DNA from: Sulfurimonas hydrogeniphila
GTDB lineage: Bacteria; Campylobacterota; Campylobacteria; Campylobacterales; Sulfurimonadaceae
DNA: 64,000 nucleotides
Reading direction: 5' to 3'
Assembly (NCBI RefSeq): GCF_009068765.1
Contig: NZ_CP035534.1
Coordinates: 2,108,001-2,172,000, forward strand
A model generated the notes under the pieces. The model worked only from the letters and a program-made list of their open reading frames with translations. It searched no databases and was not told the DNA's origin. Both the position numbers and the translations under genes were made by a program. This document shows positions 13,821 through 14,579 of this stretch, one piece after another. The stretch's first letter is position 1. Each line of letters opens with the position of its first letter.

Positions 13821-14005
13821 TGGCTAAGAAGTCAATGATAGCTAAAGCAAAACGTACTCCAAAATTTAAGGTACGTGGTTATACACGTTGTCAGATTTGT
13901 GGTCGTCCACACTCTGTACTGAGAGATTTTGGAATTTGTCGTATCTGTTTTAGAAAAATGGCAAATGAAGGTTTAATACCAGGTGTTAGAAAGTCTTCTT
14001 GGTAA
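13820..14005 (+). CDS. rpsN: 30S ribosomal protein S14, zinc-binding type
   Basis: The 61-residue protein is the short S14 form with two CxxC pairs, [20 protein letters not shown], which bind zinc. Its stop codon lies in the loop of a small hairpin (CTTGG-TAAG-CCAAG). Unlike the other junctions of the operon, it is followed by a 175-base spacer that can fold strongly. Confidence 0.96.
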
Positions 14006-14032
14006 GCCAAGAGGAAACTGCTAGCAGTCAGC

Positions 14033-14161
14033 AGTTACTGGAAGTTAACTATAAGTGCGGATTACTGCACGTGGGCTCTCTGCCGAAGAGAACTCAGCGT
14101 TAGCGTAGTTGGCGGAATCTAGGTGCCCCTTGAGGGTATACTTCCGACAACGTGAGTAACT
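14033..14161 (+). ncRNA. Candidate structured RNA between rpsN and rpsH
   Basis: The rest of the operon has junctions of at most some 40 bases, but this one is 175 bases and is richer in G and C than the coding AT-rich surroundings. An outer helix is possible between AGTTACT (14033-14039) and AGTAACT (14155-14161). Inside are a GTGC/GCAC hairpin near 14055, a CTCT/AGAG hairpin near 14079, and a long hairpin at 14108-14151. The long hairpin has GTTG/CAAC, then CGGAA/TTCCG, then an inner GTGCCC/GGGTAT stem with a CTTGA-type loop. The palindrome CTGCTAGCAG precedes it. It may be a cis-regulatory site for S8 or another ribosomal protein, or an independent RNA. I do not recognise it as a known family. 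Confidence 0.5.
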
Positions 14162-14180
14162 ACATAAAAGGAAAATATAA

Positions 14181-14579
14181 ATGGCAATTAATGATTTAGT
14201 ATCAGATGCGTTAACACGTATTCGTAATGCCGGTATGAGAAGATTACCGGTTACTACTTTGGTACACTCTAAAAGTGTAGAAGCAGTAGCAAATATCTTA
14301 GTAGACAAAGGTTACATTGAGTCTTGTAATGTAATCGAAGACGGTGTGAAAAAAACTATCAAAGTTGTACTGAAGTACGGTGAAGATGGAAAATCTGTAA
14401 TCAATGAAATGAAAAGAGTTTCAAAGCCTGGACGTCGTGTTTATAAAGGTAAAGAAGATATTAAACGTTTCAAAAATGGTTACGGAACTATTATTGTAAG
14501 TACATCACATGGCGTACTACCAAATGACAAAGCATATGAGCTTGGCATTGGTGGTGAAGTTATGTGTACGGTATGGTAG
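14181..14579 (+). CDS. rpsH: 30S ribosomal protein S8
   Basis: The 132-residue protein begins [19 protein letters not shown] and ends [11 protein letters not shown], both diagnostic for S8. AAAAGGAAAA precedes the ATG. In other bacteria S8 represses the spc operon by binding mRNA, which makes the structured region just upstream notable. Confidence 0.97.

Follow-up and report, generated by a model that had tools for sequence, protein, structure and literature searches.

The described system closest to the locus reported here is the uS8 operator of Escherichia coli, which lies at rplE and in which the order of the two core strands is swapped (PMC4176348; PMC10931766). The primary uS8 site is helix 21 of 16S rRNA, and the core nucleotides of uS8 sites comprise A595 and A596 with U644, the pairs G597-C643 and U598-A640, N641, and an invariant A642 (PMC4176348). 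According to a 2024 review, how the spc operon is controlled in species that do not follow the E. coli type is unknown, and its phylogeny has not moved forward (PMC10931766). Two kinds of known element also bear on what follows: GTAG and CGTC palindromes have been reported in Sulfurovum NBC37-1 (PMC3733652), and 23S rRNA intervening sequences, usually positioned at helix 45, are known in Campylobacter and others (PMC2801512).

A composite spacer between rpsN and rpsH

The window analysed here is a stretch of 64,000 nucleotides from Sulfurimonas hydrogeniphila, in which rpsN ends at position 14005 and rpsH starts at 14181. The 175-base spacer between these genes lies in an operon whose adjacent junctions overlap or leave no more than about 13 bases between genes, and no frame on the plus strand crosses it, which confirms the long spacer without an open frame described in a first-pass annotation of the sequence. 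The spacer region folds better than its shuffles (z -2.5), only 1 of 200 of which is equally good. No Rfam family matches the spacer above the gathering score, and the low-scoring matches, all of them below threshold, were rejected as chance.

The spacer is real and structured, yet it is composite and not a single new RNA domain. The first-pass annotation had drawn a closed multibranch domain, and had named the lack of a similar spacer in close relatives as an observation that would refute it. The large domain fails this comparison: in 25 of 33 Sulfurimonas rpsN-rpsH junctions the spacer measures 62-90 nt, and the greater part of the domain at 14033-14161 is missing. These short spacers contain two native structures, a hairpin at the rpsN stop and then a second hairpin before the Shine-Dalgarno region, and what looks like a multibranch fold in the window is a nested insertion. 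The covariation that was also to be looked for is found, both in the stop hairpin and in the inserted sequence. Taking these elements together (Table 1), we consider it likely that the junction combines a uS8 operator, the native second hairpin, and an inserted mobile repeat that is here a tolerated passenger.

Table 1. Features of the rpsN-rpsH junction, in window coordinates.
Feature	Position	Strand	Basis
Candidate uS8 operator hairpin (rpsN 3' end, stop codon, first 20 spacer bases)	13985..14025	+	16S h21 core match, descriptor, stem covariation
Operator 5' core strand AAGUC (E. coli 16S A595 A596 G597 U598 C599)	13991..13995	+	Same in own 16S; invariant in 44 distinct sites
rpsN stop codon in operator apical loop	14003..14005	+	Stem 13995-14002 with 14007-14014, pair probability 0.99
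Operator 3' core strand GAAACU (16S G639 A640 N641 A642 C643 U644)	14014..14019	+	Same in own 16S; GA(A/T)ACT in 44/44 distinct sites
Native second hairpin, 5' arm	14033..14039	+	Hairpin of varying sequence at same place in insert-free relatives
Dispersed structured repeat copy	14055..14155	+	Covariance-model match, 65.3 bits, E 1.7e-13, sole one in window
Repeat hairpin P1	14055..14070	+	P1 covariation; pair probability 0.93
Repeat pseudoknot: GGC 14074-14076 with GCC 14082-14084; CUCU 14078-14081 with AGAG 14087-14090	14074..14090	+	Mutual information; both helices in most of 124 copies
Repeat mini-hairpin GC-GUUA-GC	14097..14104	+	C-G to T-A exchange
Repeat hairpin P4 (14108-14117 with 14142-14151)	14108..14151	+	10/10 pairs changed on both sides in family
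Extra 20-nt hairpin in P4 loop	14119..14138	+	14119-14140 identical to stretch in six IS110-family copies
Native second hairpin, 3' arm	14155..14161	+	Same comparison with relatives
Shine-Dalgarno region of rpsH	14166..14174	+	Sequence; AAGGA upstream of rpsH conserved in relatives
rpsH, ribosomal protein uS8	14181..14579	+	Matches uS8 chains, best E 3.2e-30

A candidate uS8 operator at the rpsN stop codon

The small hairpin that the first-pass annotation had seen at the rpsN stop forms with near certainty in the predicted ensemble (Table 1). Its mRNA reads TTAGA-AAGTC-TTCTTGG-TAAG-CCAAGAG-GAAACT-GCTAG, and helix 21 of the organism's own 16S rRNA reads TTGGC-AAGTC-AGATG...CATTT-GAAACT-GCCGA. 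Every uS8 core nucleotide listed in PMC4176348 is present in the hairpin, which stands directly before rpsH in the operon that encodes uS8. Like helix 21, it has AAGUC and GAAACU core strands with stems on either side, above and below the core; unlike helix 21, it has other stem sequences and a short apical loop containing the stop codon. The comparison with E. coli runs along similar lines. Both hairpins mimic the uS8 core of 16S helix 21 with the same core nucleotides in the same operon (PMC4176348), but in E. coli the hairpin is found at the start of rplE and its strands are swapped (A+80 and A+81 with U+11), whereas the window site lies on the rpsN stop before rpsH and keeps the strand order of the rRNA. 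A search of the plus strand of the window for a swapped-order uS8 site of the E. coli type found none. As a kind of operator, a uS8 mimic of helix 21 is already known; the variant before rpsH, with its rRNA strand order, appears to be new.

Conservation of the hairpin was assessed over 44 distinct sites aligned from Sulfurimonas and other genera of the same family. The core is invariant over these sites except that N641 is A or T, and in the upper stem pairs one to four have each changed on both sides in 12-24 of the 44 sites. The total is 76 double changes, where none of 1000 shuffles, which ignore the relatedness of the sequences, gave more than 56, and the lower-stem pairs are kept in 91-100% of sites, with the exception of 594-645. 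The operator core is found at rpsN-rpsH in all 20 genomes examined from other genera of the family; the upper stem is very short at one locus (L360), and two others (L368, L379) carry extra sequence in the apical loop. A descriptor of core and stems gives one match in the window compared with 0.01 per shuffled window.

Could the hairpin instead be a general coupling or termination structure, its likeness to helix 21 arising from coincidence and from the constraint of Arg-Lys-Ser codons? It does straddle the rpsN stop, and its 5' core strand lies within the coding sequence, where conservation could serve the protein. We count in favour of the operator that the Lys codon is AAG, and the next a Ser TCN, in 31 of 31 Sulfurimonas rpsN-rpsH junctions. 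The 3' core strand, moreover, lies outside the gene and is nevertheless invariant at all but the one position that is free in uS8 sites. Genomes examined from other families (sets of 8 and 20) lack the operator throughout; they have AAA-GCN in place of its AAG-TCN, and their rpsN-rpsH spacers are mostly about 6-11 nt. The descriptor, moreover, picks up helix 21 and nothing unrelated, its matches in ~2.3 Mb (both strands counted) being 26 rpsN-rpsH sites and two 16S copies. We therefore regard a general structure as very unlikely, and propose that the rpsN-stop hairpin most likely serves as an operator for uS8 feedback that is independent of the one at rplE in E. coli. Because it copies the spot at which uS8 binds 16S rRNA, uS8 can probably switch off its own gene. 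The suggestion of an S8-type autoregulation site, made in the first-pass annotation, fits this hairpin and not the large domain to which it had been attached. If the proposal is true, a uS8 operator at a new place, with the rRNA strand order and family-wide covariation, would represent an independent origin of the same feedback.

We propose that uS8 left free once the rRNA is saturated would bind the rpsN-stop hairpin, and that the bound hairpin would hold the rpsN stop region folded, such that ribosomes could not restart at rpsH and its coupled genes. Where a relative's spacer measures ~33 nt, bound uS8 would be expected to cover the rpsH ribosome-binding site as well. In this genome about 155 bases, most of them looped out as second hairpin and repeat, separate the end of the operator from the rpsH start; direct occlusion is impossible over this distance, so repression would have to act via translational coupling.

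The second hairpin and the insert in its loop

A second hairpin before rpsH is found in most junctions, and its stem sequence is widely variable. In the window it corresponds to the outer helix that had been proposed to close the multibranch domain (14033-14039 with 14155-14161). That helix is a perfect 7-bp complement and homologous to the conserved native stem, although its ensemble probability in this sequence alone is about 0.04. The repeat copy lies within the loop of this hairpin, and two relatives (L010, L011) have a decayed insert of about 100 bases at the same loop. In other species an insert of this kind occupies the apical loop of the rpsN-stop hairpin, and three of these species (L017, L068, L070) have it on the opposite strand. 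Comparison of insert-filled with empty rpsN-rpsH junctions leaves the insertion edges ambiguous.

Since the repeat sits within a loop, the operator and the ribosome-binding site are intact, and the repeat is most likely a tolerated passenger here. More generally, it shows how inserts can survive in essential operons and rRNA genes by occupying positions in hairpin loops. A reading of the insert as a leader specific to rpsN-rpsH was dropped, the insert being missing in most relatives.

A dispersed, pseudoknotted repeat and its settings

The repeat, which is scattered over Campylobacterales genomes, is a unit of ~77 nt made up of a hairpin, a pseudoknot of 3+4 bp, a mini-hairpin of 2 bp and a 10-bp hairpin; the last of these, P4, is the hairpin at 14108-14151 that the first-pass annotation had correctly identified. 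Its paired positions are filled by pairs in 95.8% of alignment cells, compared with 69% after shuffling, and 18 of 19 pairs have changed on both sides; the alignments were fitted to the covariance model and so lean somewhat towards such pairing results. The pseudoknot pairs are kept in about 90-96% of 124 copies. Mismatches in the repeat helices are G.T far more often than A.C (38:1 and 145:20), which argues that one particular strand of the repeat folds, as RNA or as single-stranded DNA. As an abundant pseudoknotted element without an Rfam match, it is apparently uncatalogued.

BLAST with the spacer returned fragments elsewhere in the same genome, which holds six clear copies of the repeat and two weak matches. 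Its core motif occurs in 73 of 135 Sulfurimonas genomes, and a covariance model built from five copies gave 837 matches in 122 of them. A second covariance model located the repeat in 81 of 397 genomes sampled across the phylum, belonging to the same family and four others; matches include Sulfuricurvum, Sulfurovum and Sulfurospirillum. A 77-nt consensus-like composite probe had no match in plasmids or phages, a result that bears on close copies only. The idea of an independent RNA, also raised in the first-pass annotation, comes nearer the mark for 14055-14155; given that 25 of 33 Sulfurimonas junctions lack this sequence and that the genome carries it at other places, however, it is a dispersed repeat rather than an spc operon feature.

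The settings of the copies are diverse. Head-to-tail tandem arrays with a period of about 90 bp occur in one genome (G103; L242, L246, L247), where five copies lie between nusG and rplK. An inverted pair lies inside the 23S rRNA gene of G011 (L141/L390), near the helix 45 position, and the 16S-23S spacer of G307 holds inverted pairs as well (L388/L389; four identical pairs). Three Sulfurimonas genomes, the one studied here among them, carry the repeat between rpmG and tRNA-Trp (L002/L043, L111, L120). In G437 the copies are intergenic and 3' of genes, many of them between convergent genes, and show no clear bias in orientation; in 46 of 57 Sulfurimonas cases the gene that follows downstream shares the strand of the repeat (p 3e-6).

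Many Sulfurimonas copies do not stand alone. In 59 distinct copies the repeat is followed by a second module, mostly just before a start codon. This module contains a Shine-Dalgarno sequence, and one of its strands has two alternative partners, an upstream one and the Shine-Dalgarno sequence itself. This module, AWTTTATGAAATAAAWTWAAGG with an upstream complementary arm, directly follows the repeat before the start codons of unrelated genes (L248-L277 and other loci), among them flgE, luxS, hypA, dnaK and ribosomal protein genes. A few copies of the module stand without the repeat, and before flagellar genes at two loci (L250, L251) another structured sequence (GGCCACAGCGGCCTAAGCGAAGTAAAAGGG...) takes the place of the repeat upstream of it. 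The window copy has no such module.

How the repeat came to be at rpsN-rpsH, and what it does there, can be read in several ways. Were 14055-14155 a cis-regulator of rpsH kept by selection, such as a stabiliser that blocks 5'-3' exonucleases or a processing site, its compact and conserved pseudoknot, its intact structure in the window and the many Sulfurimonas copies in sense-oriented 5' leaders would be in keeping; this reading is nonetheless unlikely, as 25 of 33 junctions do without the repeat, three have it inverted and two relatives have it in decayed form, and the Shine-Dalgarno module of the leader copies is missing from the window copy. A translational riboswitch, formed by the repeat and the downstream module, was considered because that module offers alternative Shine-Dalgarno pairing after a structured domain; we did not adopt it because the genes downstream are unrelated, and with many copies lying outside leaders and a window copy without the module, it seems very improbable. 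It is also possible, though we think it somewhat doubtful, that a RAYT (Y1) transposase moves the repeat, which would then be a REP of the GTAG type. GTAG directly precedes P4 in most copies, RAYT-like genes are present, and the dispersed intergenic copies vary between species and lie 3' of genes in G437. Like the GTAG and CGTC palindromes (PMC3733652), moreover, the copies occur in both orientations, in dimers and in clusters. Against this, the conserved unit of ~77 nt, with P1, pseudoknot and mini-hairpin as three further substructures, exceeds a palindrome of 20-40 bp, and head-to-tail tandem arrays likewise set it apart; the last G of the tag, unpaired in a REP, is here paired and covaries with its partner; and 29 Y1_Tnp hits in 14 genomes have no copy closer than about 1.5 kb.

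We found neither a target duplication nor a transposase for the repeat, and no copies near Y1 loci; that it spreads, as a mobile unit of small size, we infer from its distribution only, and some of the copies would then have turned into leaders. BOX- and MITE-type repeats are small, modular elements near genes that are able to alter the expression of their neighbours. The repeat resembles them in size, modularity and closeness to genes; as to terminal inverted repeats and target duplication, the edges at rpsN-rpsH are ambiguous. The inverted pair near helix 45 recalls the 23S intervening sequences (PMC2801512) by its position, and the repeat, unlike those, is mostly outside rRNA. The broadest reading, which we offer tentatively and hold to be rather unlikely as a whole, would make the repeat a new class of mobile structured RNA, a domain with a pseudoknot that spreads from one Campylobacterales transcript to another. 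Once joined to the bistable Shine-Dalgarno module, it would act at dozens of unrelated genes as a transplantable 5' element for control or stability, and at rpsN-rpsH it would have landed beside an independently evolved uS8 operator.

The loop of P4 in the window holds an extra hairpin of its own. A stretch of 22 bases that includes it (14119-14140) recurs without change in the non-coding sequence downstream of the transposase gene in six IS110-family copies of this genome (L003-L008, around 1501-1522). The same or similar hairpins of 20-27 nt (..GTRCCCNTTGRGGGTA), ending in GGGTA, are inserted in one loop or another of repeat copies from other genomes.
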